In this document: one piece after another, positions 14,662 through 59,330 of the stretch
How the letters are laid out: each line of letters begins with the position of its first letter
Numbering within the stretch: the stretch's first letter is position 1
Assembly (NCBI GenBank): GCA_946699065.1
Contig: CAMPDV010000255.1
Span: 1 to 64,000, forward strand
Length of the DNA: 64,000 bases
DNA from: Loxodes magnus
Taxonomy: Eukaryota > Ciliophora > Karyorelictea > Loxodida > Loxodidae
Direction of reading: 5' to 3'
The notes under the pieces: model-generated
Told to the model about the DNA's origin: nothing
What the model saw: only the letters and a program-made list of their open reading frames with translations
The model's database searches: none
Translations under genes and position numbers: made by a program

Positions 14662-14689
14662 TAGTAAGAATGATTAGGAAGTTGAGGAG

Positions 14690-27870: not shown

Positions 27871-27874
27871 TACT

Positions 27875-29055
27875 TGCTAATTATTTAGTTCTCCTAAATT
27901 ATATGCTTTAATAATTTTTCCTTTTAAATTTTTTCTACTTTTTTTTAAATTTTCTTAAACTTGCTAGTTTCCAAGAACTTTTCATCTATATCAAAATCAA
28001 TTAGTTACATTAATTGAAAAATTATACTTGGAAAATAAAATAAAATAATAGGAATACTTTTAACTAGCAAAAGTCAACAATATAAAAGCAAAAATATTTA
28101 TTTAAATAGTTAGATTTAAGAAGCTTTTAATTTCATATTACTTTAATTTTCCTAATCTCTACAGCTCTCAACTTATTGATATAATTATATATCTTTGAAA
28201 TATTTGATTAAAAAGTAATAAAATAGCTTATATTTCTAGATTTTACTAAAGAAATTATTTGTTTGAATGTACTCTATATATTAAATATTATAATCTACAT
28301 TTTCTATTATAAAATATTATATACAATAATATATTATAAAAATAAAAATACTCAAATTTAAATTCAACATTTTTTATTTAGTTATATTAAGTGAAAGGTT
28401 ATCACAGCAATAATTAAAGTCTATATTAAATAGAATTTTACTATCTCTAAATCAGTGTAATGTTAAATCTAGTTACCCAATTGTAATTATTAATTATATA
28501 TTTATTGAATTTCATAAATTCATAAAATATTAATTACAACTAATTCCCTAAGAACTGACAAAAAAACTAATTTTAGAAAATAATTCATAAATAAAATCAA
28601 TAAAGTAACTAAAGGAAGTATTATATCACAAATATTTCCTAAAATTTTATTAAATATATTATTTAAAATAAGTTGGGAATTATTTTAGTTATCTTTTGTT
28701 TTATCTCATAAGTTAATTAAAACTCTATTATTTTAAGTTATTCATTTTATCTAAAAATATCATAGAACAAATTTAAATGTATGGAAATTAGCATTTTGAA
28801 TACTCTATTTAAGTAAATTTTTTAAGATATATCTAAGTAAAATTTATTTTAGTAGGGAAGGCTTAGGTTTTTCTTATAATTTAAAAAGTGATTTTAACGA
28901 CTAAGTTTATAATAAATATTATCTTCTCTACATTTTTACAAGACAAATAAAAATAAACTTTAATTAAGCAAAATTAAATTACTTAAAGTGCATAAAAATT
29001 AAAATGAGATATATAAATATTTTATAAATAAAAGGTATTAAATTAAGGTGATTAT
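27875..29055. other. AT-rich spacer, nothing recognised
   Basis: No gene or repeat was recognised between the 27.5-kb ORF and family C gene C1. Confidence 0.5.
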
Positions 29056-29060
29056 TATAC

Positions 29061-30043
29061 TCATTTCATTTTTTCAGCAAACTTATTTTTAAAAATTAAA
29101 TCATATTATTTCATCTTGCTTCTTAGTTTCTTTATTCTTTACTATTTATATTTCTAAGATTATGTTTTCGAATTAGTACTTTCACTCTAATTTTATTCAA
29201 CAATAAAATCTTTATAAGTCTTACTTTTAAATTTATCTTTGATACTAAAACTTAAAACTTACGATTTTTTTTTCGGTTTATTCCGTTATTTCATGAATAT
29301 CATTCCAGGATTTCTATCTTCTTTGAAAAGATATCATGGTAAATTTCCAATGTTACAAACTTCATCGTCACTAGAAAAATTTTCACTACAAAAGCTTTCT
29401 TCAAGTATTTTACTAAACTTCTAAATTAATAAATTACCTTAGCTAAATACTATGAACTTGATCTTGACCATTTAGATAAATCGTTTAAATCAATTTAATA
29501 AGGAATGCTTATCTTAATTTAGAAGAATCTATTCATTTCATCCCAGTTTACTTTTTTAAACTTTCCCTGCATCTTTTTAACTAATTTTATGAAGCATAAT
29601 TCCTCAAAGTAAGGTTACTAATCTAAATTCTAAAGAAATTCGTTATCTAAATTTGATTTTAGGATTTTTCAAGTTTATTTAATATCTTAAGAAGAAGCAT
29701 TTCTTATTTTACAATTTATTACTAAAGCAATAGAATCTTCAGCGCGTTTAGTTCTAAATTAGCTGCTTAATTTTATTTCCAGAGTTTATCCAAAAGAATC
29801 TTTAAAAAGAATCATATTCAAGCAGGCAAAAAATTCTTTTAACATCTCTTGATTACCAATTAGATCAAACGGTAATTATATCAATTTAACATTTAGATCA
29901 ACTTGATTAAGTTTAGCTTGACAATTAAGCATTTACTCAAACTAATTCAAAATCTTAAACAATTGAAACTTGACTTTCTAATCTTCAAACAATTGTTGTT
30001 TAGTTTCCCTGTTTAAGCTCATTGCACAACCTGCTTGCCACAT
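29061..30043 (-). CDS. Family C protein, copy C1 (three exons, two tiny introns, 315 aa)
   Basis: Exons are 30043-29438, 29420-29263 and 29244-29061. Introns are 17 nt (29437-29421) and 18 nt (29262-29245), both GT-AG. Removing them gives one frame of 948 nt ending in TGA. The order of conserved blocks is: start box FQLFKILN; FEQMLNCQAKLNQV; LPFDLIG; YFEELCFIKLVKKMQGKFKK; VNWDE; the box SKWSRSSSQYL; intron 1; an acidic, Ser-rich stretch (ILEESFCSENFSSDDE); LPWYLFKEDRNPG; intron 2; a basic C-terminus KLRSKMKQYDLIFKNKF. Two Trp codons are TGA (T-W-K, P-W-Y). The Trp in KWSR is TGG here but TGA in C3, C4 and C5. The function is unknown and no catalytic motif was seen. This copy is not flanked by a visible inverted partner. 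Confidence 0.75.
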
Positions 30044-34950: not shown

Positions 34951-35070
34951 GTTAAATAATAAAAGAAATTAATTTAGATTAATTAATAATTTAATATATT
35001 TCTCCATTTAAGACTTTTAATTTTAATTTTTACAGTATGAATCTCTTCTTTATTATATAATTTAATTTAA

Positions 35071-35345
35071 AGAGGGTGGAAAGCCCTTTCCTTCGGATGC
35101 TTCTTGGAGACCCAGCAAGGCAACAAAAAATGAGCGCGGACGGAGGATAAATCTGAGGAAGAGAAACCAATTACAAGAGAAGGAAGATATGACAAGCTGG
35201 AGAACTCTGAAGGCTAGGAGGAAACTTTCTTCATCATAGGTCGGGGAAATGTACCCGTAATCGCATATTGCATCCTATGCTTTGGAAGGAAAAATTATAG
35301 GGACGTACTGCAGGAAGAGGAAACAAGGAAAGAGAGAACCATAGA
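35071..35345 (+). ncRNA. GC-rich island with a three-helix core shared with the 59-kb 5S-like sequences
   Basis: The GC content stands out from the surroundings. The core at 35231-35285 aligns with two copies at 58.9-59.1 kb (CATCA.AGGT.GGG, GTACCC.TAAT, GCTTTGG). Three helices can form: P1 CATAGG/CCTATG (35235-35240 with 35274-35279), P2 CGGG/CCCG (35242-35245 with 35254-35257) and P3 GCA/TGC (35263-35265 with 35269-35271). In the other copies P1 and P2 differ in sequence but largely keep pairing, which points to an RNA. A plus frame is also open through the island (DKSEEEKPITREGRYDKLEN, then FIIGRGNVPVIAYCILCFG), so coding is not excluded. Differences between the two 59-kb copies fall mainly at codon positions 1 and 2, which argues against coding. 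Confidence 0.4.
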
Positions 35346-35377
35346 TTTTTTTTAGAAATTAAATAAAATTAATTTAA

Positions 35378-35411
35378 AGTGCTGCGCACCAACGAGAGTG
35401 TTACGCGCTCT
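35378..35411 (+). repeat. Conserved GC-rich hairpin, copy 1
   Basis: A stem pairs AGTGC/GCTCT, GCG/CGC and CAC/GTG around the loop CAACGAGA. A near-identical copy lies at 59331-59364 and an inverted one at 34919. It follows the GC-rich island directly, as the 59-kb copy follows the 5S-like sequences. Confidence 0.6.
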
Positions 35412-36094
35412 ATAATCCAATTTATTTAATTATTTATTCATTATCTTATTTATAGATATTATTAAAACAAAATTGCTTGATTATACATCATTCATTTAAA
35501 GCATGATCTAAATTATAAAAATCTAAATTAAAATAATTATCAAAGTGTTTTAATATTAAAACTTAAAATTCTTCAAATTAAAATAATTTCATTTAAATAA
35601 CTGGAAAATTTATATAAAAAATTTTATAATAAGCAAAAACTTAAAAGTATTTGAGAAGGAAAAAGAAAAGGAAAAATAAAATAATCTAAATTTAAGCAGA
35701 AAAAAATGATATATATTTGAATTTTTTATACAGTTTATTCAAACATTTTCTAAATTTAGACAAAAATTACATCATAAAATAAATTTTATTTAATAGAATT
35801 CTAATTTAATTTTTAGATATCAAATTAGAGATAACTGTGAAAATAAATATTTAAGATTTTATAGAATACACGCATTAATTAAGTTAAAATAGAATTTTAA
35901 TCTTTAATTAGTATCTAAAATTAAGATGTTCTTATCACTCTGAAAAACAAATTAATAAAAAATTTATTAAATATCTATTGTTGTATTTAACAGGATAGAT
36001 TCATTAAATAATTAAAAATGTTATAATAGAGAGGGATGAAAATCATTTTAAATTAAGCCTAAAACTAATAAACTGCTAGTTCTTTTATGTAAAT

Positions 36095-36160
36095 GGTTGA
36101 TAGTATGCTATTAATGAGTAAATTTAATTAAAACGGGTTCGATTCACACCTTGACTACAT
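36095..36160 (+). pseudogene. Degenerate tRNA-like sequence (left arm)
   Basis: The stretch GGGTTCGATTC resembles a B box / T loop, and ATGGTTGATAG about 40 nt upstream resembles an A box. The T stem and acceptor do not pair properly, and no anticodon can be assigned. It is mirrored in the right arm. Confidence 0.35.
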
Positions 36161-37498
36161 TTACAATTCTTTCGACAAATATCAACAATAAGTAGATACA
36201 ATTATCTAATACTTATTTAAAAGAAATAATTATTAATCACTTCAATGATAGAAATTCTTCTTATTTTAGAAATACATGTATAATAATAAATGAATGCTCC
36301 TATTTATATTTATTCAGTATAATTTAGAAAAGATAACTTTTATCTAGGCTTTTATAATGGATTTTTATAAATAAAATAGAGCCAAAAATATAAAATAGTA
36401 TGCAAATGTATTTGCTCCTTTTAACTATATAAAATTTGAATTTATTTAACTTAGTAAACAAAATGCTAATGAAATAAATATAAGAAATTAACTAATGAAA
36501 TTTGCTTTAATCTTTATCTAACATCAAAATTTAACTATAGACAATTCTTAAATAATTGATATTATATTTACATAATACTAAATTATTTTCTCTTGCTAGT
36601 ACTAGTGACATAGATGAAAGTATTTCAATTTCCACTAAATGAATAACTAATAAATTTAAGAATAAATAAAATCAATTTTATAAAGTAAAATCGAAGCAAA
36701 GAAAATCAAAATTAATATTCATTAGCATCATGAATAAAATAAATATTGTAATTATTTACAATTTATTCTCAAATAATACAAAGTAGATTGTATCTTGCAA
36801 AATATTTGCGCAAGTATAAAATAATCCAAATAATAAATTATAAATCTCGAGTAACTCAATATGTTATAACCAAAATAATATCTTTATTCTTTAAAAGAGT
36901 TTATATGAAAACTTAGTTGTGTTATTTAACTACGAAACTAATTATACATAATTTCACATGTAAAATAATAAAAAGGTAAAGTTAAATTTATTTATAGAGT
37001 AAATAAGTTGCTTCTTTATACTTATACTAACTTTTCGTTGTAAATTATTTGCTTAATTTTAATCTTATATTAAATTTCAAGTTAGAATTAATATAATTGT
37101 AACCTTTTGTTATTAAATCTTTAAATTTTCCTTAATTCACTCATAATCTTTTTTTAATTATTATGCTTATGTTAATATACTTTCATCCAAAATTAAAATA
37201 AAAACTAAATAATAGCTAAACATTTATTAAAATCATGCTTTTAAGATATTTTTATTTCCCTTTTAAAATGATGACAATCCTAACTAATTTTCTAGTTATA
37301 TCCACAAATTTAAGCATCTTATTAATTTTAGTATAAAGTTAACTACTATAGTTATATATTTTAATAGCTATGTTTTTACTATTTACATTAAAACACTTCT
37401 TAAATATACAATCATAGTTTCTTTTAAGCAAAAAAAGAGAAATTGAAGTACTATAATAAATGATTTAATAAAATAGTTGAACCAGTTCATTTATCTCT

Positions 37499-38464
37499 TC
37501 AATCATTGTCTATCTTTTCTAAAAATTTATTTTTGAATTATAAATCATATTTTTTTACTTTGACTCCTAACTTCTTCATCTTCTATTTCTCTTATCTTAT
37601 TGAAACATTCTCATCCCCTAATTATTACTCTTTTTTATTTATTTTTCTACCTTCTTTGCTAACAAATTTACACTTAAAACTAAATTATAAATACTTACTT
37701 CTGACATATTTAATCGCTCTTTATTCTGAATATCTTCCCAGGTCTTTTCTCCTAGATAAATTCATATCATGGCAACTTTTTCACATTAAAATCTTCCTCA
37801 TCACTTGAAAAGTTTTCACTACAGTAACTCTCTTCAAGTATTTTACTAAAACTCTATTTTATAGCCTTACTTGAGTGAAAGCCTTTGAACTTGTTCTTGA
37901 TCATTTTAAAACATTATTTGAGTCTATTTTAAAAGGAATGCTTATTTTTAGTTAGAAGCTTTTATTTACCTCATTTCAACTTGCTTTTTTAATTTTTCCT
38001 TTCATTTCCTTTACTAATTTTTTGAGATAAAGTTCAGATGAAATGAATTCTTGGTAGTTTTATTAGTTAGCACATTTAGAAGTTAAAATTCTAGAAATTT
38101 TCTTAAGATCTAGTGTTTTAGTTTAGCTAGCTTTAACATCTAATACTATTGTAATATCTTCTGAGTGTCTAGTTCTACGTTAACTGGTTATATTTAGTTT
38201 GAGGTTGGAATCTTAAGAATTTGCGAAAAGAATTCGATTCAAACTAATAAAAATAAGTTTTAATCCTTGTTTGCAACCAATGAGATCATAAGGTAGTTAC
38301 TTGAGGTTAACAACAAGATTTACATTGTAAAGTTTGGCTTGTTGATTGAGAAGTAACTCGAATCAGTTAAGAAGTTTAAAAAGTTGGAATTAATAATTTG
38401 ATTTTTCAAATAATAAGCATTAAGGTTATCTATTTAAGCTTTTTGTTCTAGAAGAATATTACAT
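37499..38464 (-). CDS. Family C protein, copy C2 (left arm, mirror of C3)
   Basis: This is the mirror image of C3, with the same 966-bp gene span: ATG at 38464-38462 and TGA at 37501-37499. It reads outward from the centre of the palindrome. The two tiny introns are at the mirrored positions; the second contains one base change relative to C3 (TTTATAATTTAG instead of TTTATAGTTTAG), which keeps its AG end. Standard-code translation of the opposite strand here gives a 100-codon frame (37506-37808), which is an antisense artefact. The gene starts 101 bp from the inner arm boundary. The product is unknown, as for C3. Confidence 0.7.
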
Positions 38465-38565
38465 TTTTATAAAGATGGAATATTATACCTAATAACTATA
38501 ATTATAATTAGTCTTCTTTTTATTTATTCATAATTTAAATTCTCTTCTACATTTAAAGATATAAT

Positions 38566-40130
38566 AGAATTAGAATTTTATTTACTAGGCTTTTTTATTA
38601 CATTAAGGTCTTAAATTTTATCCGAAATTAAAGAAATTGTAAATAATTTTAAATTTTAAAGAATAATTATTGCTGCTTCTTAAGTAAAAATCTATAAGAA
38701 TAAATAATAAAAGTTTTATTGTAATTAAGTCTAATAGTTAAAAGCTTTTAATAAATATAGCTTAATAAAATTTAAATGTTTTAAAAGAAAATCATGGATG
38801 TTTTTAAAAGGCCAGAATATCAAAATTTAAAGGCATTTAGATTTATAATAAATTATAAAATCATAAATAAGTTATGAATAAGCGTTTATTTAGCAAAATA
38901 AATTTATAAAATAAGCAAAACTAAATATAAGAATAAAAATTTAAACTATCAAATCAAATTTTTCTTTAAGATGCAAGATATTTATGAAATTTTTATTTTT
39001 AACTATTTAAGTTTAGCTTTATCATTTAATTTTTATATATAAGTTTAATTTAAAATTAAAACTTTGCTTTTTTTCTTTTCTTTAAACTGGTAAAAATTAA
39101 AAAATTAGACTTATGTTTCGCTAATTATAATTTTAGGTTTGATAAAGTACAATATTAATATATTTTCAAAAACGAAAAATAGGAAAACTTTAAAACTTAG
39201 TAAGTTCGAAAAAGTTTAAGTTTATAATAAAATTATAATTCTAAAATTTAGAATATCGAATTAACGAAGTAGTAATAGTAGAATAGACATAAAATTTAAG
39301 AAAGTTAGATAAACTTATTAGAAAGGCTAAAAGAAAGAAAATTTAAAATAATTTATTATTTTCATACAAAATCAAAAGTGAAGCTCTCTAATAGATTTTT
39401 ATTTGGTGTTAAATCTATAAATCATTGGTTTAAGCAATTTAAATATCTACTATCTATTTAAAATAGAAAAATTAATTTTATAGGAATTTTCTTGTAATTG
39501 AATTGCTAAAAAATTTAAATTTAAAGATTTTTTTTAAACTTTAGCAATTTAATTAGTGTTTTTAATATATCTCAATTAAGAGAAAAGTAATTTATTTGCA
39601 AGCTCTGCTTATAAGTTTAAAATTAAGAAGATTTAATAGAATTTATTTAATTTGATTGAAATGTTTTATTCTTTGCTATTAAATAAATTCTTTAGAGTTC
39701 TTCCATTTTAACTAGCCAATATTGAAAATAGCCTAAATAGTTGAGTTTTATTATGAATAATGTTTAAATTAAAAAATGATTTTAGGATAAAGCATATTTA
39801 ATAGGACTTTAAGAGTGATAAATTAGCATGAAGCGACTTATCTCGTGTTGACCTAGCAAAATTAAAAATGTTGCTTATTTATTTCCTATCTTTAATTCTT
39901 TTTAAATTTAATTACCTTCAGATCACTTATAGAAGAGTAATGCTTAAAAAGTAATTTTTATGACTGCTTAATATAGTAAATTTCTAAACATTTGCAAAAT
40001 AAGTTAATTATAGAATGCATTTTTTAAATTATAATGCCTAAAAACCTTGGAAAATCCAACTAATACATGTCTTTCTATTGTACTTAAAAAAATTTCAGAA
40101 ATAGATTTAATTGGTGACCTAAATGATAAT
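38566..40130. other. Left part of IR1 centre, AT-rich, no gene resolved
   Basis: Single-copy sequence between the left arm and the Gag-like remnant. No transposase-like frame was recognised. Confidence 0.45.
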
Positions 40131-40139
40131 ATAAGCATA

Positions 40140-41040
40140 GTGAAATGACAAAATGACTAAAATTAGTAAAAAGAGAATGCTTATTTAAGGAAATCAAGAA
40201 AGATAATAAACTGAATAAAATAAATTATGGAAAAGGATATAATACATAGCTACTTATTATATATAAAAAATAGATTTAATCTCTTCTAAAGCCCTAAGTT
40301 AAACTGATTTAAACAGTAAATATAAAAGAAATATAACAACTATTCTTGGAAAATAAGATCCTAAAGTATAAAATCTCGGAATTATAAGAAAAAGCAGAAC
40401 TCTGTTTTAAAATGTAGTAAAGATACAATAAGAAAATATCTATTTTTTTAAAAATTTAGTAGCACATTGGAAAAACAAGAAAAGAGCTTTCAACGATATA
40501 AAATAGAAGAAATTCAACTGGTTTACTGCAAATTTTCAGTTATCGATCTAAAAAAGCTAAAAAATGAAGATCCTATAAATCTTGAGAAGGAATAAAAGCC
40601 TGATCAAACTTATAAGTAGAGAAATATATCAAGATGTTGATTCTGTAAGAGGAAAGGACACCTAGTAAGGCAATTTTACAGTCGAGGATTAAGTAAAAAA
40701 TAGAAGAAAAATAACTTTGAATAAAATTGAATAAATTGTATTGCACTCTTGAAATTTAAATCTTTAGAAGAAAATTTTATAAAGGAATGAAATTCCATGA
40801 ATCAATATGGAAGAGAATAATAGACTAATAATGAAAATACTATAAGGAGCAACAGGATATACAGAACTAAGAGGGAAAGAAGAGGATTGAGCTCCAGAAT
40901 AATATGAAGATTGAATTAAAGAAAAAGAAGAATTAGTCATCTATGAAAAACTTCAAAGTAAGCATCAAAATTTTATAAGAGCAAATTTAATTGAACAAAA
41001 TTGGCTAATCTAATAAATGTAGATCCTCATAATTAATAAT
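40140..41040 (+). pseudogene. Gag-like CCHC remnant (copy D) inside IR1 centre
   Basis: A coil-like block (LFLENKILKYKISELQEKAE) and, in another frame, LEKQEKSFQRYKIEEIQL are followed by a knuckle RCWFCKRKGHLVRQF (TGT at 40635). It keeps C..C and H of CX2CX4HX4C, but the last Cys is Phe. Its Trp is TGA. Downstream Lys/Glu-rich frames (GATGYTELRGKEEDWAPEQY) may be the C-terminal part. At least one frame change lies between the coil and the knuckle. It is a third, divergent Gag-like type, probably dead, and lies convergent with B2 in the centre of the palindrome. Confidence 0.5.
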
Positions 41041-42117
41041 TTATTATTAAATTTGCTTCAAATAAAATATCTAATTTCTCTGATGTATTTATTATTTAAT
41101 TATAACTTAAATAATCAAATTATATAAATGAATATTAGTAAAAACTTAAAGGAAAATATTTTCAACTAAAAAAGTCAATGAAAATCCCAATCGATTAATA
41201 ACTAACTAGCTGGAATTTAATTTTTATAGAATTGTATATCACTTTGGTGTTTTGTAATTATTTAATCTTCAAATTTGTGTTCAATTATAAAATAAAATGC
41301 CCTAAATTTATGAGTGTCATTGTATTTACTAAATATACATCAATGTATAATTAAAAAGAAAATAAAATATCACGATTTTTCTCTCCTAACTAAGCATTTA
41401 ATCTTTTTTATTTGGCTTATCCTTATTTTAAAAGGAAAATATAGGCTTATTGTAAAAATTTTATATAGTTATCATTTTTTTAAGGAAAATAAAAAATCTT
41501 TAATAAAAGCTTTTAAAAAATTCCAAACTTTCTACTTATATCACTCTTTTTATAAAAATATATATTAGATAAAATTTTCCTCACAAAGAATCAACATACT
41601 CCCATCTATTATTTTTCTTAATTTAAAATTTCATTTATGACAGGTTTTGTATTAAATAAGAGATAAAAGAATAAATGGATCTAATTAATTTTAACTCTTA
41701 AAACTAAATAATTCTTTAATCTTTTAAAAGAAAAATTTAAAGAGAATTCATGTCTTTAGAAGTTTTAATTTAATGATTTGCTTAAAACTATTTTTCTAAG
41801 TTAAACAAATTTCTTTATTAAATATTTAACTAAACAAAATAAAATATAAAAAGTATAAAATTAAAAAAGCTAATCAAATATTATATTCAAGTATTAAAGG
41901 ATTAAAGAACTATAATATCTTTAATTTCATAAGTATTGAAATAAGTATACATTGAATTTCATTTTAGAGATATATAAACCTAAATTCCCTCATTATTAAA
42001 AAATTATAAGCAAAATTTAAAATATTTTTGAGTTTGATAAGTTTATAATATAATTTGGTTGAATTTTTAATAATTAATAATTTATAGTAATAATAATATT
42101 AATTTAAGTTTTCCGTT

Positions 42118-43037
42118 TTAGGGATTTTCAACCTCATCAGAAAGACAACAGTTCATGCTCCCTGCTGTTAAATATAAAAGTTCGGGTCGCCCAATTTTAG
42201 CGAGATTGGTAACTCGAATTTTTCCAAGTTTTCCCTCCTTTACTTGCCTTGGTTCCATCTTAATCTTGTATATTGAACCATCCGGGTTACAATACATTCT
42301 TTTCATTCTTGCTTCTTCTTTTTTCTTCTTTTTTGCTCTTTTATCCAATAGTTTCTTTATTTCTATTAAAATTTCCAACACTTCCGATATAAATGTCATA
42401 CACTTCCACAGCAGAAACATTTCTTTTTGATTTTTAATTATTTTTCTTGATGAATTTGCTCTTTTTAGGCTTCGACTTCCATTTGTATAGCTCAAGTTTC
42501 GCTTTGATCTTTCTTAAATGTTTACAATTTTTCTGCTATTTTTATGAATCTGTTATCCAGTTCAGTCTTTTTTTGAAGCTAATTTTAGGATTAGCTATTC
42601 TGACTTTGCGATATGTTTCAAAAGGCGCTTAGTTCTCTTTCCTAGGATATGAGTCTTGACTCTATTCCTTCTGCTAGGTTAAGTTAATGCATTAGCTTCT
42701 CATTGTCCTTCCTAAGCTTTTTGACCTCTTTCTGGAGGTTTAGTACAACTTTAATGAGCTGTTCCATGCTCATCTAGCCAGAAGGGTTAAATTTTGTGAC
42801 CTCCTGGTGCAAAGCAGATTTCACCTGTTTTCTAGGCTTCTCCTCCTACGTTGGAGTTAGTGCATGAGTGCTTTTCTGAGTCTTTTTCCGTTCTTCGTAG
42901 CTCTATTATGCTCCAGGTTGTTAAGATTATTAAGAAAAAGGTTAAGGTTAAGTGTAAGAAGACTGTCCGAGATTTATTTCTGGTTTCCTCTCCTTCTTCG
43001 AGGAGGTGGTATAGAAACCCTTTTTGAAGCCTTCCAT
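42118..43037 (-). CDS. Gag-like CCHC zinc-knuckle protein, family B copy B2, with -1 frame change near the 3' end
   Basis: ATG is at 43037. The first frame reads MEGFKKGFYTTSSKKERKPE, a Gln/Pro-rich stretch (YTQPQPFSQQSQQPGAQQSY), TPTQEEKPRKQVKSALHQEV, KFNPSGQMSMEQLIKVVLNL and a long coil. The zinc knuckle is CFCCGSVWHLYRKC (42419-42378; its Trp is TGA). This frame meets TGA at 42305. The -1 frame then supplies KRMYCNPDGSIYKIKM, which matches the tail NKLWINEQGIYKQKL of family A, and goes on to RVTNLAKIGRPELLYLTAGS, which matches the B1 tail. The join lies in an A-rich tract that includes A-AAA-AAG in the correct phase for -1 slippage. So it could be a programmed frameshift or a one-base lesion. 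Three in-frame TGA codons read as Trp upstream. The exact end is uncertain. Confidence 0.65.
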
Positions 43038-43039
43038 TT

Positions 43040-44512
43040 TTTAATTCTTGAATTTTTAATAATGATTGAAATAAGAATAGGTAAAATAATAGTATTAAGA
43101 TTTAGTTAATAATGATAATATAAACTTTATATGAGACATATAAGAATAAAGATTTAATAGAATATGATTTCATATATCTATCTTAAACGAAATAGTATTT
43201 ACTTCATAATATTTGTTAAAAATGATTCTAAGAATAAATTATAACTAAACTCTATATTTAATATAATTTTAAAACAATTAAAACTTCTTAATTTAACTAG
43301 AACAATACTTCTCGATTAAAAGTGAGATTTCAAGACATTTTGATTATAAATTAACTCTATGAAATCTAAGTTTTTTTATTTTATTGTTTTTTGTACAATT
43401 ATCAGTTTATTTTCTTAAAATAAATGGATTGCAATAAATTTTTTATATTTGAGAAAAAAATTATTTTCTCCAATTTAAAATTTTATTTAAATTATTAAGC
43501 ATCTTTTTAAAAAATGTACTATTTAAGTTTATTTTTCTAATGATTTTGTAATTATACTTATAAATTATTTTTTTAATTTATAGAGTAATCTCAGATTTTT
43601 CTTTGGTGGATTAATGGTTACATTTTTATTGTATAGCGATTTATTTTTGCTAGATAAAACAAATTATTAAATATTAGTTCTTCATAATAATTTCTAATAA
43701 ATTTTGTTTAATAATTGTTAATAGCAAAAGCTTTAAATATTTTGTATATTAAATTTCTTCTTTTAAGATACTTTTAATTTTTAGATAAAATAGATTTTAG
43801 TGTTAGTAGTATTAACTGTAGATGATATATACATTTTTTACTAGTACTTTCAATTATTTTACCAAGAAGACTCTTAAGAAAATCATATATTTTTCTTTTA
43901 TTATGCATGTCTTATTATAACTTAATATAATTAATTTTGCAAAGATTTATCTTAATTTACCTCTAAATTTTTTTCTAGCTATTACTTAATTATGAAAATT
44001 ATGAAAAGATAAGTAAATATTTAAAGAAATTTAAAGTGTATATCCTAAAGTTTTAACTATATTACTATTTTTAAGATAAAAAATACAATCCTTTTATAAA
44101 CATATCTATTATTAATTTAATTTTCTCTATTATCATATTCTTTGCTAAAAGTTGCTTTAAATAGCCAAGCAAAATTCTTGATTATACTGATTTAATACTA
44201 AATTGAAAATAAAATTATTTTAGAATATATCATTTGTATATTAAAGTAAAATTAGCTTTAGTTTATTAATTATTTATTAATTAATGATATAAATTAAATA
44301 CTTTGCTATTTATTAATAACTTAGTATTTTTATCTTTAGTCTAATTTTCATAATATTTCCTTTTATTCTTATTCATTTGTACGATCTTTATTTAAAGTCT
44401 AAAATGAAGATAAATTTTCATAATTTAAAATAATTAAATTAGATTCTAGCTTTAAATTATCATTATAATGTGTACTAAATGATAACAACATTAAATTTAT
44501 AATTTTTATTTG
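43040..44512. other. Right part of IR1 centre, AT-rich, no gene seen
   Basis: No coding motif, RNA or repeat was recognised between Gag-like B2 and the right arm. Confidence 0.45.
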
Positions 44513-44600
44513 ATTATATCTTTAAATGTAGAAGAGAATTTAAATTATGAATAAATAAAAAGAAGACTAATTATAATTATAGTTATTAGGTATAATATTC

Positions 44601-44613
44601 CATCTTTATAAAA
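44601..44613 (+). promoter_or_regulatory. Conserved CATCTTTATAAAA start context of family C genes
   Basis: CATCTTTATAAAA directly precedes the ATG of C3. The same string precedes C2, C5 and the partial gene at 63990, and a variant (TTTTTTATAAAT) precedes C1. It may be a core promoter or initiator-like signal, but within arms it is also explained by shared ancestry. Confidence 0.35.
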
Positions 44614-45579
44614 ATGTAATATTCTTCTAGAACAAAAAGCTTAAATAGATAACCTTAATGCTTATTATTTGAAAAATCAAATTATTAATTCCAACTTTTT
44701 AAACTTCTTAACTGATTCGAGTTACTTCTCAATCAACAAGCCAAACTTTACAATGTAAATCTTGTTGTTAACCTCAAGTAACTACCTTATGATCTCATTG
44801 GTTGCAAACAAGGATTAAAACTTATTTTTATTAGTTTGAATCGAATTCTTTTCGCAAATTCTTAAGATTCCAACCTCAAACTAAATATAACCAGTTAACG
44901 TAGAACTAGACACTCAGAAGATATTACAATAGTATTAGATGTTAAAGCTAGCTAAACTAAAACACTAGATCTTAAGAAAATTTCTAGAATTTTAACTTCT
45001 AAATGTGCCAACTAATAAAACTACCAAGAATTCATTTCATCTGAACTTTATCTCAAAAAATTAGTAAAGGAAATGAAAGGAAAAATTAAAAAAGCAAGTT
45101 GAAATGAGGTAAATAAAAGCTTCTAACTAAAAATAAGCATTCCTTTTAAAATAGACTCAAATAATGTTTTAAAATGATCAAGAACAAGTTCAAAGGCTTT
45201 CACTCAAGTAAGGCTATAAAATAGAGTTTTAGTAAAATACTTGAAGAGAGTTACTGTAGTGAAAACTTTTCAAGTGATGAGGAAGATTTTAATGTGAAAA
45301 AGTTGCCATGATATGAATTTATCTAGGAGAAAAGACCTGGGAAGATATTCAGAATAAAGAGCGATTAAATATGTCAAAAGTAAGTATTTATAGTTTAGTT
45401 TTAAGTGTAAATTTGTTAGCAAAGAAGGTAGAAAAATAAATAAAAAAGAGTAATAATTAGGGGATGAGAATGTTTCAATAAGATAAGAGAAATAGAAGAT
45501 GAAGAAGTTAGGAGTCAAAGTAAAAAAATATGATTTATAATTCAAAAATAAATTTTTAGAAAAGATAGACAATGATTGA
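44614..45579 (+). CDS. Family C protein, copy C3 (three exons, two tiny introns, 309 aa)
   Basis: Exons are 44614-45207, 45225-45379 and 45399-45579 (930 coding nt). Intron 1 is GTAAGGCTATAAAATAG (17 nt) and intron 2 is GTAAGTATTTATAGTTTAG (19 nt). Splicing restores a single frame ending in TGA at 45577. Four Trp codons are TGA, and three of these are TGG in C1 or C5 while the fourth is TGG in C1 only: LNWFE, SWNE, KWSR, LPWY. The N-terminus is basic. The middle has YLKKLVKEMKGKIKK and ISIPFKID. The third quarter is acidic (ILEESYCSENFSSDEE), and the C-terminus is basic (KKYDLQFKNKF). Exon 3 has no TGA before the stop. There is no known family and no membrane segment. The gene starts 101 bp inside the arm and points away from the palindrome centre. 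It is probably an element-encoded protein. Confidence 0.78.
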
Positions 45580-46915
45580 AGAGATAAATGAACTGGTTCA
45601 ACTATTTTATTAAATCATTTATTATAGCACTTCAATTTCTCTTTTTTTGCTTAAAAGAAACTATGATTGTATATTTAAGAAGTGTTTTAATGTAAAAAGT
45701 AAAAACATAACTATTAAAATATATAACTATAGTAGTTAACTTTATACTAAAATTAATAAGATGCTTAAATTTGTGGATATAACTAGAAAATTAGTTAGGA
45801 TTGGCATCATTTTAAAAGGGAAATAAAAATATCTTAAAAGCATGATTTTAATAAATGTTTAGCTATTATTTAGTTTTTATTTTAATTTTGGATGAAAGTA
45901 TATTAACATAAGTATAATAATTAAAAAAGATTATGAGTGAATTAAGGAAAATTTAAAGATTTAATAACAAAAGGTTACAATTATATTAATTCTAACTTGA
46001 AATTTAATATAAGATTAAAATTAAGCAAATAATTTACAACGAAAAGTTAATATAAGTATAAAAAGCAACTTATTTACTCTATAAATAAATTTAACTTTAC
46101 CTTTTTATTATTTTACATGTGAAATTATGTATAATTAGTTTCGTAGTTAAATAACACAACTAAGTTTTCATATAAACTCTTTTAAAGAATAAAGATATTA
46201 TTTTGGTTATAACATATTGAGTTACTCAAGATTTATAATTTATCATTTGGATTATTTTATACTTGCGCAAATATTTTGCAAGATACAATCTACTTTGTAT
46301 CATTTGAGAATAAATTGTAAATAATTACAATATTTATTTTATTCATGATGCTAATTAATATTAATTTTGATTTTCTTTGCTTCGATTTTACTTTATAAAA
46401 TTGATTTTATTTATTCTTAAATCTTATTAGTTATTCATTTAGTGGAAATTGAAATACTTTCATCTATGTCACTAGTACTAGCAAGTGAAAATAATTGAGA
46501 TTATGTAAATATAATATCAATTATTTAAGAATAGTCTATAGTTAAATTTTGATGTTAGATAAAGATTAAAGCAAATTTCATTAGTTAATTTCTTATATTT
46601 ATTTCATTAGCATTTTGTTTACTAAGTTAAATAAATTCAAATTTTATATAGTTAAAAGGAGCAAATACATTTGCATACTATTTTATATTTTTGGCTCTAT
46701 TTTATTTATAAAAATCCATTATAAAAGCCTAGATAAAAGTTATCTTTTCTAAATTATACTGAATAAATATAAATAGGAGCATTCATTTATTATTATACAT
46801 GTATTTCTAAAATAAGAATAATTTCTATCATTGAAGTGATTAATAATTATTTCTTTTAAATAAGTATTAGATAATTATATCTACTTATTGTTGATATTTG
46901 TCGAAAGAATTGTAA

Positions 46916-46981
46916 ATGTAGTCAAGGTGTGAATCGAACCCGTTTTAATTAAATTTACTCATTAATAGCATACTATCAACC
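46916..46981 (-). pseudogene. Degenerate tRNA-like sequence (right arm)
   Basis: Mirror copy of 36095-36160, with the GGGTTCGATTC block on the minus strand and a few base differences upstream. Confidence 0.35.
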
Positions 46982-47168
46982 ATTTATATAATAGAACTAG
47001 CAATTTATTAGTTTTAGGCTTAATTTAAAATGATTTTCATCCCTCTCTATTATAACATTTTTAATTATTTAATGAATCTATCCTGTTAAATACAACAATA
47101 GATATTTAATAAATTTTTTATTAATTTGTTTTTCAGAGTGATAAGAACATCTTAATTTTAGATACTAA

Positions 47169-49440
47169 ATTTAATTTAATTTAATTTCTATATGGAATAT
47201 ATTTTATTATTATTTAATATTCTGATATGTAAGAAATTTATTTAAATTTTAAGTGGTCAAACGAGAAGAATAAATAAAAAATAAAATTTAAAAATTAATT
47301 TATAGCAATTTAGAGATAATTATAAAATCCATGTGAATACTTATTTTAATTATCTCTTAGTATTTATAGGTTAATATCTCGCTATGCTTTATCTAAAATA
47401 TATAATATTTTAAAAAATTTAATAAATTTAGATAAAGTAATTAATAAAAAAATATATAAATTTTTATTAGGCTAAAATTATTTTATCTTTTTATTAATTA
47501 CTTCTATCTAAGCTTAAAAACTATAATAAAAAATTCAGAATTCCGTGTCTGGCTACCTGAATAATGCTGAACTATATAATTGTGATTTTTTAATTTATCA
47601 TTAATAATTTTTTCTCTTAAAAATACTTTAGATATTAAATTTTTAATTTCTTCATGTCAAAGTTAATGTTAAATTATCCTCACTCAGTAAGCTCTTTATG
47701 GATTTATTTAATAAATTAAAATAAATTTTACTAAAAATAAATTCATATTTAAATGAATCTTTGAGCACAAGCTTCTATATAAATGAAAAAAAACTTAAAT
47801 TTTAAATGTGGAAAATTACAATTCTTTTTATTAGAATATGATCTGATTTTATTGTTTTATTCAATTTTTTATAAGTATAAAATATGGAAATTGATTTATT
47901 TATATTTTTGAGTTTGTTATGCTGATATTACATATGCAATAAAATGTTTGAATAAGTTATTAGTCTTTTTTATTATTTTCCTTTAATCTATTTTTATTAT
48001 ATACTTAAATTGGTTTAAAATACAATAAAAAAGTCTATGAAGTTTTAGTTTTTTAATTGTCAAAAAATTGAAAGCAAAAAGTTCTTAAATTTCCAAGTCG
48101 ATTTAAAAAATAAAGAATATAATTAACTGATAAAAGAAAAGATAAAAGAATAGTAAAAATGTATTATTATGATCATAAGTACTTATATTAAGCAAAAGCA
48201 ATGCTAATTTTTATTTTCTAATTCATAGAGTTATTTATATCTTTTTATAAGAATTTATTATTTTAATATTTGCTTAGATTTCATTATTAAATTAGATTAT
48301 AATCTTAAAAATTGTTATTTACATAAAAAGTTTTGTTTCATAAAAATTAAAAAGATACAAACAAACTATGTAAATAAAAAGCAAGCTCTATTAACTAATT
48401 TTATTAATATTAGATATAATCCATATAATTGTCATATTTCACATTAATTATTTCAGTTAAAAATAAACTTAAATTATTTTTAAAAATTAAATAACTAAGT
48501 AACTAAAATAATTACTAGCCTTTTTTTATTAAATCTACATTAACTATTTCCTAATAAATTAAAATATCTCATATAATCAAGTGGAAATATAAAATTTTGC
48601 TTAATTTTTAACTAAAATTAGATATTTTAACAAAGTCTATTTAAATTTTACAAAAATAAATAAATTAATCTATATCCTAAAAATTCTAAATATTTATTAT
48701 TCATTTGCTTAAAAATACAAATCACAATAAATGTAGGATGAAATGATATGAACACTTTCAATTGGAATGCAAAATTAATTTTAGTATATTATATTTAAAA
48801 AAGATGAATTATATGCAGAATAAATTAATAGATAGAAATTTTATTTATTTTTAATAATTCTATAAATAATAAAAATAATTTAAGCTGAAGAACTTAAAAT
48901 AATAATAAAATTTTAAATTACCTAGATTTAAATAAGTTAATTTATTAAAAATTAGGAAATAATTTTAAATATGTATCTTTAAAATAAAATTATGATATAA
49001 ATTACATTGAAAATTAAAAGTTATTTACGAATTTTATTAAATAATTAATTATTTAATAAAAAAGTTAAAATATATGATTATTCTTTAAATGTTAAGTGTT
49101 AGTTCCTTTAATTATATTTCTTCTTTCTAAATAAATTCTTTAGTTATTTCTAAAAATTTCATATTTCTTTATAAGCTTTAATTAAATCCTTATTTAGAGA
49201 TTCTTTTAACTAAAGTACTATCTGTCATAATAATCCTTTATGTTTAAGTTAAAAATAAAATTTAAATATATTAAATGAATACTATTTATAATTAAAAATA
49301 TATTAGTAAAATATAAAATGAATGTTTAACTATTAAATTTAAGCATATGATATTATCTATTTAAATAATTAAAATATTTGGTATTAAAGTGGCTGCTTTT
49401 TATTTTATCTTTTATTACCTTTGAATCATCCATCTTTATT
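47169..49440. other. AT-rich spacer right of IR1, nothing recognised
   Basis: No gene, RNA or repeat was recognised between the outer end of IR1 and pseudogene C4. Confidence 0.5.
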
Positions 49441-50265
49441 AAAATATTTCTTAAGAATCGAGTAATGAGTATAAGAAGATAATCTTAAAGATCATTCTTT
49501 GTAGAATAGAAAATTAAATTTCAACTTTTTAAAGTTCTTAACTGGTTTGAGTAACTACTTAATCAGCAGGCAAAACTTAATTAAGTTTATCTAAACGTAA
49601 AGCTAATGCAACTACCCTATGAACTAGCTGGCAACAAGAAAGCTTTGAAATAAATTTTTATTAATTTAAATGAAATCATTTTCAGAAACAGTCTAGACTC
49701 AACTCTAGAAGTAAAAATAACCAGCAAACATAGAGTAAGACACTCAGAAGATTTCATTGTAATAGTAGTAGATTGTAAAGTAAGCTAGGTTTCCTCGAAC
49801 TGAAAATAAGCATTCCTTTCAGAATAGACTTAAAGGATTTATTTAAATGATCAAGATAAAGTTCTAGTTATTTAAAAAAAGTAAGCTTTTTAATTAAGAA
49901 TTTTAGTAGAATACTTGAAGAGAGTTACTGTAGTGAGAATTTCTATAGTGATGAAGAATGCTACAGTATTAAGAAATTGCCACGACATCCCTTCAAATAA
50001 GAAAAAAGTCTGGAAAAATATTCAATCAAGATTAAACAATTAAAAATCCTGGATATAAAATGTAATTCATAATTATATAGTCTTAAGAAATACTTATTAA
50101 GAAAAGCTTACAAAGAACTTATTAAAGAAAAAAAAATAGTCACTAGGATATTCCTAAATAAGAATTAAACGATATTAAGAATAGAGAACTAAAAAATAGG
50201 GTATTAAGATAAAATAATACGATTTATGTTTCAAAAATAAATTTACAGTAAGGAAGTATATGGAA
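49441..50265 (+). pseudogene. Family C copy C4: start lost and 169-nt internal deletion
   Basis: It is nearly identical to C5 over FQLFKVLNWFEQLLNQQAKL, LPYELAGNKKAL and KWSRQSSSYL, so the two are recent relatives. The start codon has changed (AAAATATTT where C5 has AAAATGTTA). At 49794/49795 GTTTCC is joined directly to TCGAAC, removing the equivalent of 56548-56716 in C5. The loss is 169 nt, so the frame is broken. Intron 1 is still recognisable (GTAAGCTTTTTAATTAAG). The Trp of LPW is Arg here (CGA for TGA). The C-terminal YDLCFKNKF block survives near 50230. It is a non-functional copy. Confidence 0.8.
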
Positions 50266-51784
50266 TGAGCGCACAGATGATTTTATTTTTAGTTAAGAAT
50301 ATTTGTATCTATAAAAACTTTGAGAATAAGCTCTTGCCCTTTTTAAAATTATTTAATTAAAAAAGCTATATGAAAGTATATAAATTTAATATCTAACTAT
50401 TACATTAGGAAATTATATAATTAATTTATAAGAGTAAAATATTTTCATTATAAATATTACTAAATTATTTATAATGCTTTAAAGTTTATTCTCTAAGCTT
50501 TATTGATTACATTAAAAATAAAAGAAGATTACTTACAATATTTAGCAAATATCAAATCTTTAATGCAATTTTATCACTTTTCCTTTATGAATTTACCAAC
50601 TATATTTAAATAAAATTCTAAATTATCCTTTCTAAATAAAATTAAATAAGGAAACTAATTTTAAATTTTCTAGTAAGGAATATACTTATAAGCAATATGC
50701 AAATGCAGAGATTATATTTGTTAAATAAGAAAAAGAATATTTAATTATTTTTAAAGCTTTATCCAAATAAAATAATTAATTAAAAAACCAAGAAATATTT
50801 GGAAATGCTATTATTTTAATTATTTCTATCAGCTAGAGCTAATGTTAAATTATTAAAACTGAATTTAAAATTATTATGCTTAATCAAAAAAATAGATACT
50901 TACTTTATTTATAATTAAGAAAAGAAATTACTACTATCTTTAGATCATTATTTTAGATTTATCAAATATATAAAAGACTAAGTATTTATTTATATACACG
51001 AGTAAATCAAAAAATTAAATTAGATTCAAAAATTTTCTCTAATAATCTTAAATTTCCTAGTAACTATAAAACATTCTAAATTCTGTATTTATAGTCAATA
51101 TTCGTATACTAAAACAGTTCATATCTCTAATTTTAGGATTTTTAATATTTATAAATCATTTAGCACAATAAGTTAGATATTTTACAATAAAGGAAATTTG
51201 TTTTTATTTAAATTTTCGTTTTTCCAAAAATTTCCTAAATACTCTACATTATAAATTAATAAGCAAAGTTAAAAAAGATATTTTGGAATAATCTAAATAA
51301 AAATATGAATATATCCCAGTTATATATATTATATTATTTCTATTATAACTCTTTAATCTTTTCTAAATATTTCCAAATTCTCAAATTGCTAAAATTAAAA
51401 TTAAATATTTAATGCTTAGACCTATTTTTAGGTTAAAATTATTATATTTTCAGAGAAAACTTAGAATAAATCAAAAGCTTTTATAGATTAGTAGTTTCTT
51501 AATATCATAAAATTATAAAATTAAATTATCAATAATTTGTCTTAAAATTAAAAATTCATATAATTTTAGAGAAACAATTAGATAGAAAAAATATTTAATT
51601 TACTCTTAAAGATTAATTTTATAAAAAAAGATTAAATGAAATATTATATTTAAAAGGAATTTTGCTTGGTAATTATTCTTGAATCTAATAACTTTTTTAA
51701 ATATAATTATGATTTATAGAAAGAATATAATAAAGTCTTAATAATAATAATAATATACTTAAAGTTAGTAGAGTTTTGCATTCT
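50266..51784. other. AT-rich spacer, nothing recognised
   Basis: No supported feature was found between C4 and the 3' end of Gag-A3. Confidence 0.5.
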
Positions 51785-51867
51785 CTGGAATTGCAACCAG
51801 TTCCTGCTGACAGTTTTTTTAACGTGGGTGTGATCCACGACCTTTTTATTAAGTGGAAGGTTACCAC
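51785..51867 (-). other. Three-hairpin 3' element of Gag-A copy A3
   Basis: On the minus strand H1 is GTGGTAACCTTCCAC (51867-51853), H2 pairs CGTGG/CCACG (51839-51823) and H3 pairs CTGG/CCAG (51800-51785). The loop of H3 has TGC where A1 and A2 have the TGA stop. Confidence 0.6.
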
Positions 51868-52568
51868 TGTAACCGTTCAAGTGGTCTTGCAAAAAGCTTT
51901 TATTTGTAGATCCCTGTTGGAGTTATTCATAGTTTATTGAGTTGTCTCCATGTTCTTTTCTGCTCTTATTCGTTTATTTTCTTTCATTAACAACAGTTTT
52001 TTAAAATATGTTGATTTGATTTGCAACATCAACAAAGTTTGTATTATTGTCTTTATTTCGTTCTTTTTTATGATAATTTATTTTCTATATTTTCTAATCT
52101 TTTAATGAAACTTGTAGCAATCATTTCTTTTTCTGGATTCAATTCTGTTTTTAATTCTATTGTTATTTTTTCTATTTCCATTTTTGTGTCGTATTTAAAA
52201 TTTTATTATGATTAAGTTCAGAGTTATTCTTCCGTTATTAATTTGCTACAAATAAGTTATCTTCTAAGTATTAGTAATTCGTTGTTCTAATCTTCTATGT
52301 TACTTATTAGTTCCCGTATTTTTTCGCCTAAGTTGTAAGTTGTTTCTTCATAATTTGAGATTACTTTTTACATTTGGTCTAATTAAATTTAAAGTTTTTG
52401 ATTAGTTTCGTTTTTAGGTTAACTTATCTCTATTTATCCTACCATAAGTTTACCTTCTGAAGAAGAGCTTGACTCCTCCTATTGTTATTATTTTTTCTAA
52501 ATTTCTTTTCCCACTTTTCTCTTTAGGTTTCTAAGTTAATTTTTTGAGAGTCGAAGAGATTATTCCAT
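51790..52568 (-). CDS. Gag-like CCHC zinc-knuckle protein, family A copy A3, stop lost
   Basis: ATG is at 52568. The frame is continuous through MEQSLRLSKNQLRNLKRK, the patch SSSSSEGKLMVG, the coil box GEKIRELISNIEDQNNELL, a MEIE box, the knuckle CWCCKSNQHILKNC and the tail NKLWITPTGIYKQKLF, and then WQPST..KGRG shared with A1. The knuckle Trp is TGA, as are two Trp codons nearby. Near the end a one-nt deletion relative to A1 and a TGA-to-TGC change remove the expected stop, so the frame runs into AT-rich DNA with no nearby TGA. The body is well preserved, so the damage is either recent or termination differs here. It is the most divergent of the three A copies at the knuckle His region. Confidence 0.7.
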
Positions 52569-52571
52569 TTT

Positions 52572-55500
52572 TTTTCTTATATAATAAAGTCTTTTATAAA
52601 GATAAGCAAGCTTAATAAGTTGCTATGCTTTAATTGAAATTTATTTAAAACTTTATTTGTAAATATTTGATAATAAAGAAGATATTTATTAACTAAGTAA
52701 ATATATAGCTATAATTACTTTTAAGTTGATGAATTCATAATAAATTTGAGTAAAATAGTAACTTAATAAATATTAAATGAATTAAGAAAAAAACTAGAAT
52801 ATTCATCTTAAAAAGAATATATAATATGAAAGTTGATTATAAATAGTTTATTAGGTAAAATCAATGAGTTTGACAAATCTCATATAAAAATGCAAATTTT
52901 AATGGTAATTTTATATAATCATTTATAAATTAATGTGTTATTATAATATAAAAGACAAAATATAGTATCTAAAGTATTAGAATTTATTTTTCTATAATTT
53001 TTTATTTTTTTATACTTATTCTTTGTTTTATTATAACTTTTTTCAATCAATTTTTTATCAATAAGTTTTTATCTTCAATTTATCTGACTCTTTGGATTTT
53101 AACATAAAAAGAACCAAAATTTTCTGATTTATATTTTTAAGTATGTTTTAAATTGCTGATTAAAGAAACAAATTTGAATTAAATTTTATCTTTAAAATTT
53201 ACTTTATGCAATAATCAAGCTTCGAAAAAATTAAATAATTTTATAATTTTATTTATTAAAAATAAAATTATTCATTTTACTTATATTAAAATAATTTAAG
53301 GCAATTGATTAAATTTAGAAAAGAATTTATATTAATATTAATTTTTTATAAATAATTAATCTTTATTAATTAAATATAAGACAATTATTAAAATAATTTG
53401 TTATCTTTTTATTTTTTATTTTATTTAAAAATTAATTTATTTTATTATATCATTTTTTTAATATTAATATCTTAAGAATTTAAAAACTTAAATTTTTAAA
53501 AAAAAATAAAGAAAAATAAAATAATAGAAAGAATATTACAAAACTTGGAGAAAAAATTTCATTTATTACGCTTATTAAATATAATAACGAGTATTTAATA
53601 TTTTAACTTTTATTTATGCAACTAATAATAATTTTAGGATGATATAAGTTAGGCAATAAATTAAAATTATAATTAAAAAAATAAAATTGAAATAGATATA
53701 TTATTATAATAATTTTATGGTTAAATCATTTCCTTTAACATATCTAAATAGGTATATTTATCCCCATTTTATTTGCTAATATTGCCTTTTAATTATTTGT
53801 TCCTAAATTTAATTACATTTGTAATTTATTAATTTTTTGATCAAATTGATAAATTGGTAAATATAATTGTATAGTTAATTATTTATTAATTTATTTAATA
53901 AATAAAGTAAATAGAGATTGAAAGAAAAATTTCAAAATTTAACTATTTTCCTTAATGTAAATAAATATCTATCAAAACATTTATTTCATAATATCAAATA
54001 AATAAAAGCACTTTTAATTAAAAAATAGTTTAAAACTAGGAATTAATAAACTAAGTAGGAGTTTATAATAATTTAAAAAAGAAGAAGAAAAGTCAATTGC
54101 GAAATGGTGAATAAATTTCCAAAATAGTCAAATAATGAATTTTCATCATTTTTTGATATTTATTTTTGACTTAAATATCTAACAAAATTCTAAATATAAA
54201 TTACTTTTCAAGTTATTAAAATAATTAATATCATAAAAGAAAGAAAAGACAAAGAGCTTATAGAGATATAGAACAAATTTTAAAATTAAAAAATAATTGA
54301 AACTTTATAAAATAGAAATTTATAAAATTATTGCTTTAAAAATATTTACCTTTTATCTTACATTTTAACTAAGAGTATTATTATAAAAGTTAGACCCTTT
54401 TTAATTTCTTATATAATAAAACTAATTTGGCATATAAAGCTAACTAGCTTAAAAACAATTTTAATATTCTATTTTAACTTTCAGCTTTTTTAAACCTATT
54501 ATCTTATTATATTAATAATACATTTTATGGTAAATTTCTTTGTCTTATTATTAATAGATCTTTTATAAATTTTCTTATTTTTATTTATCTTAGACTTAAA
54601 AATTTACTAAGCTTCTTCAATAGTTTTATCTTTCTTAAATGAATTTTCTATATCAACTTATTCTTTAGATGAGGGCCCTAATAAAAAGATCATTGATTTA
54701 TTTATTGATTTATTTATTTATTCTTGCTTAATTTTTCTTTTAAATAAGTGATTTAAATTACTTTTTTAACTTCTCTCAGTTTTAATAATCTTAAAATTTC
54801 TTTTAATTATTCCTTTTTGCACTTATTTCTATAAAATTTTTAGATATTTTCTTTTCATATTATAGCAAAATTCTTACTATTGTTATTTGTATAAATTAAA
54901 TAAGTATATTCAAATCTCTATAATAAAATATTATAGATTTATTAAGTTTATATTTATTTATCTTTATCTTATTCTTACAAAATTTGTCTGAAAAGTTTAA
55001 AAAATTTAAATTTATTAAGAAGAAGAAAACTTTGATGGAAGATATATTAATTAATTATAATTAAGGAAAAATATAGATAAATTTGCAGGGAGAAAAATAA
55101 GAAAAAACATAAAAAATAAAATATCCGTATATAATAAATTTTATTTTAAGATTCATTCAAGAAATTCTAAATGTTTAAATTAGAAAAAAATTTAACTTTT
55201 ACATTTTGAAAAAATCAAGAATAAAATGCTAAAATAAAAATTTAATTTAAAAATCAATCAATCTAAAGAAAAGTATTGTAAATTTAATCTTTTATAATTT
55301 TTAGTACTTTAAACGCTTATGCATTAAAAAAATCCATAAATCTAAAATTAGATAAGGAATAGTTACATTAAATAAAATAAATAAAAGTATAAAAAATCTC
55401 TTTATATCTTGCATTTACCATGTTTTATCTTAATCAATGTATTACTTATATAATAAGCATGATAATTAGAACTTTAAATTAAAATATATCTCCCTTAATT

Positions 55501-56070: not shown

Positions 56071-56074
56071 ATTT

Positions 56075-58880: not shown

Positions 58881-58890
58881 TTTTAAAACC

Positions 58891-59023: not shown

Positions 59024-59062
59024 GATTTATTTTAATTTTTAATACTGGAACGAAAAAGAAAT

Positions 59063-59190: not shown

Positions 59191-59211
59191 TATGAGTATT
59201 CTAAAATTATA

Positions 59212-59327: not shown

Positions 59328-59330
59328 TAA

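Follow-up and report, generated by a model that had tools for sequence, protein, structure and literature searches.

Among described systems, the closest to the locus considered here are the gene palindromes of sex chromosomes. Mammalian examples are described as gene copies in inverted arms, the similarity of one arm to the other being put down to gene conversion (PMC3723533). For the human palindrome P8, arm growth through the recruitment of neighbouring sequence is described (PMC6790999), and a willow study presents palindromic repeats of the sex chromosome as convergent with those of mammals, with their conservation attributed to gene conversion (PMC7023750). Here we describe a palindrome, P1, in the first 64,000 bases of contig CAMPDV010000255.1 (C255; assembly GCA_946699065.1) of the karyorelict ciliate Loxodes magnus; this stretch is referred to as the window, and the wider examination covered 194 kb of the same contig. 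P1 holds a gene copy in each of its inverted arms, as do the palindromes of the human Y and of X-linked families, and it has a homologous counterpart on a second contig, C330. Human Y palindrome arms are much longer than the arms seen here (about 1–2.7 kb). The setting is also different: unlike the mammalian palindromes, these lie in a ciliate, have no known sex linkage and occur as pairs within a cluster of a diverged, many-member family, and the willow repeats, belonging to a plant and sex-linked, are likewise unlike the Loxodes pairs. We found no report in the open-access literature of a gene palindrome with arm conversion in a karyorelict ciliate, and the available part of the paper on L. 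magnus makes no mention of palindromes, inverted repeats, gene conversion, inversion or histidine kinase (PMC11441545). P1 is of a kind already known from sex chromosomes and is not a new transposon. The reading that we favour, with a probability of about 0.84, is that P1 is a gene palindrome whose arms have been kept alike by repeated arm-to-arm gene conversion, after an ancestral inverted copy and a duplication of the region.

The P1 palindrome and its counterpart on a second contig

Comparison of the window with itself by BLASTN gave a single inverted pair, the P1 arms, which are 98.88% identical over 2,674 columns. A repeat search recovered the same arms as five ungapped pieces, 97–99% complementary, and the palindrome is confirmed as real. 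The first-pass annotation, made from the sequence by a model, had described inverse arms with few differences, each with an intact, intron-bearing gene reading outward from 101 bp inside the arm. Both descriptions are borne out, the second by the gene models and by the ATG codons at 44614–44616 (right) and 38464–38462 (left), each placed 101 bp inward from where the reciprocal BLAST match ends (44513 and 38565). The arms themselves also stand as described, their length being corrected from 2.66 to about 2.67 kb. The features of P1 are as follows.

35908–38580: left arm, paired in inverted orientation with 47168–44498.
35940–36590: outermost 0.65 kb of the left arm, with a mirror copy at 46487–47136; absent at the C330 palindrome; holds a dispersed repeat with a tRNA B-box-like stretch.
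37499–38464, minus strand: left-arm gene; exons 38464–37871, 37853–37699 and 37679–37502; stop TGA at 37501–37499; introns of 17 and 19 nt; 309 aa.
38581–44497: spacer of 5,917 bp, collinear with the C330 spacer apart from separate insertions and a single inverted piece; all six frames free of Pfam domains.
42059–43063, minus strand: dispersed-repeat insertion; body 42075–43047; 16-bp direct repeats TTGAATTTTTAATAAT at 42059–42074 and 43048–43063.
43922–44413: spacer piece of about 490 bp, inverted by BLAST orientation relative to C330 and to a relative at 149.3 kb.
44498–47168: right arm, the putative original context of the gene.
44614–45579, plus strand: right-arm gene; exons 44614–45207, 45225–45379 and 45399–45576; stop TGA at 45577–45579; 309 aa.

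The evidence that the arms have evolved in concert comes from C330. Collinearity between the two contigs extends along C255 between 20.4 and about 46.6 kb, the left flanks pairing C330 30001–46065 with C255 20354–35938, and C330 carries a palindrome with arms at 46112–48156 and 53992–56031 that are 98.8% identical to each other. Between the two loci, arm identity is only 83–84%, and the spacers are collinear in three pieces of 75.9, 76.5 and 81.9% identity. In a quartet test of the four arms over 1,925 gap-free columns, 1,595 were constant and 286 grouped the arms by locus, the alternatives (left with left, or crosswise) being supported by 0 and 0 columns and the other 44 showing other patterns. 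Left–right differences in the inner 2 kb compared amount to 46 alignment columns, with gaps and edges counted. Both palindromes have the left inner junction in common: it is spanned by a single BLAST match of 1,947 columns, and C255 and C330 are 74.5% identical over the adjoining 400 bp of spacer, where ten shuffled pairs gave 50.5–57.8%. Since this junction and the collinear spacer are shared, the palindrome would predate the split of the loci, and repeated arm-to-arm overwriting would account for arms of about 99% identity within each locus where the spacer has drifted to 76–82% between loci.

A lone relative at C255:147–150 kb indicates which arm came first. A single match of 3,052 columns aligns it with the C330 right arm, the spacer side of that arm and the outer flank, the spacer side alone being 68.9% identical to C330, and the right arm is therefore likely to be the original. 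We suggest that an ancestral gene, sitting in the right-arm context, gave rise to an inverted copy about 6 kb distant; that the region was later duplicated, giving the C255 and C330 versions; and that in each version non-crossover homologous recombination then repeatedly replaced the sequence of one arm with that of the other. One change in the extent of the arms may also be traced. C330 lacks the outer 0.65 kb present in both P1 arms, and the last ~30 bp of the right P1 arm correspond to left-flank sequence at C330. On the strength of one short alignment, the outer ~0.69 kb of both P1 arms, including these ~30 bp, probably reflects left-to-right copying that ran on past the former arm boundary, a mode of growth that resembles the enlargement of human P8.

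The centre of P1 had been described as carrying Gag-like remnants. Six-frame Pfam searches of the spacer gave no domain within the insertion at 42059–43063, Gag and reverse transcriptase included, and a shorter piece of it gave only a sub-threshold AmiA-like match (E 0.089); the Gag-like label gives way to a separate, later insertion with a 16-bp duplication. The C330 spacer lacks it and provides the empty site, so the insertion is probably younger than the split of the loci. It plays no part in the palindrome's origin. The element is a GC-rich dispersed repeat of ~0.95 kb: a whole-assembly search with 42113–43047 gave 5,739 first-look candidates, and among the best 40, which yielded 41 matches, 40 matches (its own copy included) were nearly end to end at 91–100%. 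In its 16-bp target-site duplication and its many near full-length copies it is like the dispersed, retroelement-like insertions of this genome; unlike them, it shows no reverse transcriptase or Gag domain in our searches. The same repeat recurs every ~14.0 kb on contig C1853.

The arm gene and its predicted product

The P1 genes were translated with TAA and TAG as glutamine and TGA as tryptophan, after removal of the two short introns (17 and 19 nt). Open reading frame scans of the window with the standard code and with code 6 gave no usable gene. When homologous places in the window were compared, TGA was found to face TGG at conserved tryptophan sites, and removal of short GTAA...AG stretches restored the reading frame. 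A first intron of 16–18 nt restores the frame in 18 of 20 copies, with exactly 23 codons from a conserved IPF/IPY motif to the splice site; in two of these 18 an alternative candidate for this intron was present, and of the remaining two copies the one at 75 kb has no first-intron candidate and the one at 63.99 kb has a broken frame. In the fully modelled copies, start codons lie 198–204 codons upstream and a second intron of 17–19 nt follows. More than one second-intron candidate fitted in several copies, and the one starting GTAAG or GTAA and 17–19 nt long was chosen. Twelve copies could be modelled in this way, encoding 309–323 residues; k82, k86 and k104 were left out for want of a convincing second intron, as were k49, k67, k75, k89 and the copy at 63.99 kb. 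In four tryptophan columns across the 12 copies, 24 of 48 cells are TGA, 21 are TGG and 3 are other codons; in a fifth, column 124, TGA occurs in two of the 12 copies with no tryptophan codon opposite. A window-wide test for an excess of GTAAG..TAG introns gave a weak result. The published description gives UGA in L. magnus as tryptophan or stop, an intron mode of 17 bp and a macronuclear assembly of 706 Mbp (PMC11441545). A code with UGA as tryptophan, together with introns of 16–19 nt, accounts for the seemingly broken genes.

The two P1 proteins are identical over 309 residues, and their coding sequences differ at two positions, both synonymous. The ratio of nonsynonymous to synonymous substitution rates (dN/dS; Nei–Gojobori method with the adapted code) was computed for 14 pairs. 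It lies between 0.20 and 0.46 in all 11 pairs with more than 40 substitutions, and takes the values 0, 0.24 and 0.78 in the three low-count pairs (2, 4 and 13 substitutions). Selection on the protein and conversion between the arms would together keep both P1 gene copies intact.

The protein was identified by its predicted fold, after searches of Pfam and of PDB sequences had not identified it. Exon 1 of the P1 gene is predicted to adopt the ATP-binding fold of histidine kinases, with an AlphaFold model of predicted local distance difference test score (pLDDT) 76.2 and predicted template modelling score (pTM) 0.74; the predicted fold is like that of HATPase_c/GHKL domains such as the catalytic domain of ETR1 (4pl9), RetS (6dk7) and GacS (7z8n). 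Some results count against this assignment. Only three of five AlphaFold models were similar in pLDDT, the other two being poor (38.7 and 35.7), and, unlike ETR1, RetS and GacS, the family has no Pfam HATPase match, HATPase_c being absent from the matches of nine family members at E <= 1. A family profile run against PDB sequences gave one unrelated match (E 0.31). An alignment was read by eye against the N, D and G box motifs of HATPase_c; on this reading the position of the N-box asparagine is I, L or F in all nine members aligned, and the glycine-rich box appears to be missing. The model thus points to a histidine-kinase ATPase fold in degenerate form, with ATP-site motifs that seem to have been lost. 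The product might then most readily be a non-catalytic partner in phosphorelay-like signalling, which we suggest tentatively.

The gene family, its inverted pairs and the competing explanations

A protein search of the whole assembly (705,730,643 bases) returned 51 rows, comprising 34 family members, 12 weak relatives elsewhere and 5 second pieces. The family is clustered and lineage-specific, its members lying on four contigs, 17 on C255, 3 on C330, 3 on C309 and 11 on C36; the member at 75 kb is weak by protein and clear by DNA. Two of the weak relatives were examined and gave no HATPase match, and one of them shares the exon-2 motif. Besides the P1 genes, the following family features were recorded in the window.

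29061–30043, minus strand: family gene outside the palindromes; 315 aa, frame open; introns of 17 and 18 nt.
49411–50024, plus strand: internally deleted family member.
55112–57526: left arm of a second palindrome, P2; partner 63531–65965 on C255, of which the first 470 bp lie in the window; 95.5% over 2,444 columns, with high identity from about 55,300.
56075–57067, minus strand: family gene in the P2 left arm; 318 aa; introns of 18 and 18 nt.

The first of these genes is touched by a match on another contig: C309:305142–311084 is 98.6% identical to window 24076–30025 over 6 kb, with a sharp stop at 30025, inside the start of the gene, suggesting a recent exchange or a duplication breakpoint.

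Comparison of exon-1 DNA gave 10 reciprocal-best pairs among the 34 members, nine of them with both partners on the same contig. Eight of these nine are inverted (strand-shuffle P = 0.025), as are all seven with more than 93% identity, though the P1 and C330 pairs share descent and are not independent in this count. The genes read outward in P1, P2 and the C330 palindrome, and inward in P3–P5, the pairs at 82/86, 94/104 and 152/163 kb. Near-identity takes different forms in the other pairs. In P5 (C255:150740–164750) the arms are near-identical outside and decayed inside, with BLAST pieces of 98.5, 79, 70 and 65%; identity is 95–100% over about 3 kb around the gene (about 150.8–153.8 kb) and 59–73% just inside, and is therefore regional. 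In P3 and P4 it is confined to gene-sized blocks, so not every inverted pair need be an eroded palindrome; these two may instead be dispersed gene copies that were homogenised later.

The first-pass annotation had offered two explanations, an undescribed large element or a recurrent inverted duplication, and it is the second that finds support, in the inverted gene pairs at several places in the family cluster. A large DNA transposon or Maverick-like element, with gene-bearing terminal inverted repeats of 2.67 kb, would explain why the inverted arms are long and why both hold a gene, and a search of the genome for more units did reveal one homologous unit, that on C330. The element should nevertheless carry recognisable machinery and ends, and the earlier statement that no transposase is visible holds: none of 18 frames, covering the left arm and the whole spacer, matched Pfam at E <= 0.1, the right arm being covered through the left, to which it is 98.9% identical. 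Target-site duplications, which the annotation had proposed looking for, do not exceed chance; the longest are 7 bp at P1 and 8 bp at C330, with none of at least 6 bp at P2, and 200 random placements gave a median of 6 and a 95th percentile of 9. The outer ends differ between the P1 and C330 units, which moreover sit in collinear left flanks, and among the best 40 of 91 candidates the arm is matched beyond gene length only by C330 and by the half-unit at C255:147–149 kb. Other pairs have different spacers, with no match longer than 250 columns between the spacers of different C255 pairs, and some have the opposite gene orientation. We regard a transposon as most improbable. Equally remote is an artefact of assembly or library preparation through fold-back reads. 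Long palindromes are a known class of artefact and a single assembly was examined, but the spacer is unique and 5.9 kb long, the arms differ from each other (98.88%), and a different contig has the same layout with arms only 83–84% identical to the first; an assembly artefact is unlikely to produce the same structure twice with different sequence.

Two further explanations keep the palindromes and change how their arms came to be alike; each is unlikely, and they differ little in weight. If C255 and C330 had undergone recent, independent inverted duplications, the arms would be alike through youth, without conversion. The uniformly high arm identity within each unit, the recurrence of inverted pairs in the cluster and the gene-sized blocks of high identity in P3 and P4 would all fit. 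Against this, the two loci share their left inner junction and their spacer pieces at 75–82%, so that independent events would need the same donor, target and orientation, and the block of 95–100% identity beside 59–73% in P5 is not expected of one recent duplication. Alternatively, and only slightly less doubtful, conversion could be focused on this gene family, whether because the gene contains a recombination hotspot or because inverted cassettes exchange sequence in a programmed way; such exchange could serve, for example, self-recognition or mating-type-like diversification, or the inward pairs could give rise to hairpin RNA. This possibility draws on P3 and P4, where near-identity is centred in or close to the gene (the model of the P3 gene stopping short of its 3′ end), and on P5, where the homogenised 3-kb block with the gene lies inside a longer palindrome that has decayed.

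Repeated arm-to-arm conversion remains our preferred account of P1, and a number of observations weigh against it. Conversion is inferred from sequence comparison, and an identical pattern would result if one arm had been re-duplicated repeatedly into the same junction, although the same breakpoints would then have been used on two occasions. Erosion has affected about 100 bp at the left inner edge of the C330 arm, so that the junctions agree only to within about that length. On the right inner side C255 and C330 are at chance level (54.8%), because the inverted piece begins there. Within the family, the nine same-contig pairs include a direct one (89%) and an inverted one whose members lie 332 kb apart (79.9%); the P2 copy at 63.99 kb has not kept its reading frame; and near-identity in P3 and P4 spans only about 0.9 and 0.7 kb, with flanks at chance. 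Nor are inverted copies peculiar to the family. In the rest of the 194 kb of C255, which also served as a control, 51739–52575 and 132567–131732 form an inverted repeat outside it, 98.4% identical and 80 kb apart, other C255 repeats outside it being direct copies (92–96%). A control of 40 kb on two other contigs showed no near-identical inverted pair, and one degenerate inverted set, C223:125090–136765 at 66–74%, on account of which inverted duplication may be common genome-wide.

Other repeats and wider significance

Several further repeats were recorded in passing. The dispersed repeat in the outer P1 arm (window 36013–36213, mirrored in the right arm) is ~80–180 bp long and contains the tRNA B-box-like stretch GGTTCGATTC. 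Among the best 40 of 51 candidates, 38 of 40 matches lie outside P1, at 71–82% identity, and the repeat recurs every ~11.34 kb on C150 and every ~28.5 kb on C146, suggesting large tandem arrays. ARAGORN and Rfam did not call it a tRNA and reported nothing within the P1 arms; elsewhere in the window their only call was a tRNA-Cys gene at 3792–3863. A direct segmental duplication links window 8165–16361 with C255:119128–127396 (85% over 8.4 kb, with flanking collinear pieces). A repeated coding-like family occurs at 2107–2847, 23214–23954 and 51687–52592, the last of these including the 51739–52575 copy of the inverted repeat mentioned above, and the frame at 2.2–3.0 kb ends with a CCHC-like stretch, CWYCQSWYHLLRYC. 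Dispersed repeats at 58871–59405 and 35024–35448 have several copies, at 88–96% on C255 and 86–91% on C330.

Discussion of gene palindromes with arm conversion has centred on sex chromosomes, where their proposed role is to substitute for recombination that has been lost. If our reading is true, the same arrangement arises without known sex linkage, in a karyorelict ciliate with two nuclei of nearly the same genome, and at least one small inverted gene pair there evolves in concert. With arms as short as about 1–2.7 kb, and pairs of different age within a single cluster, the birth, growth and decay of palindromes would become open to comparison in this family.

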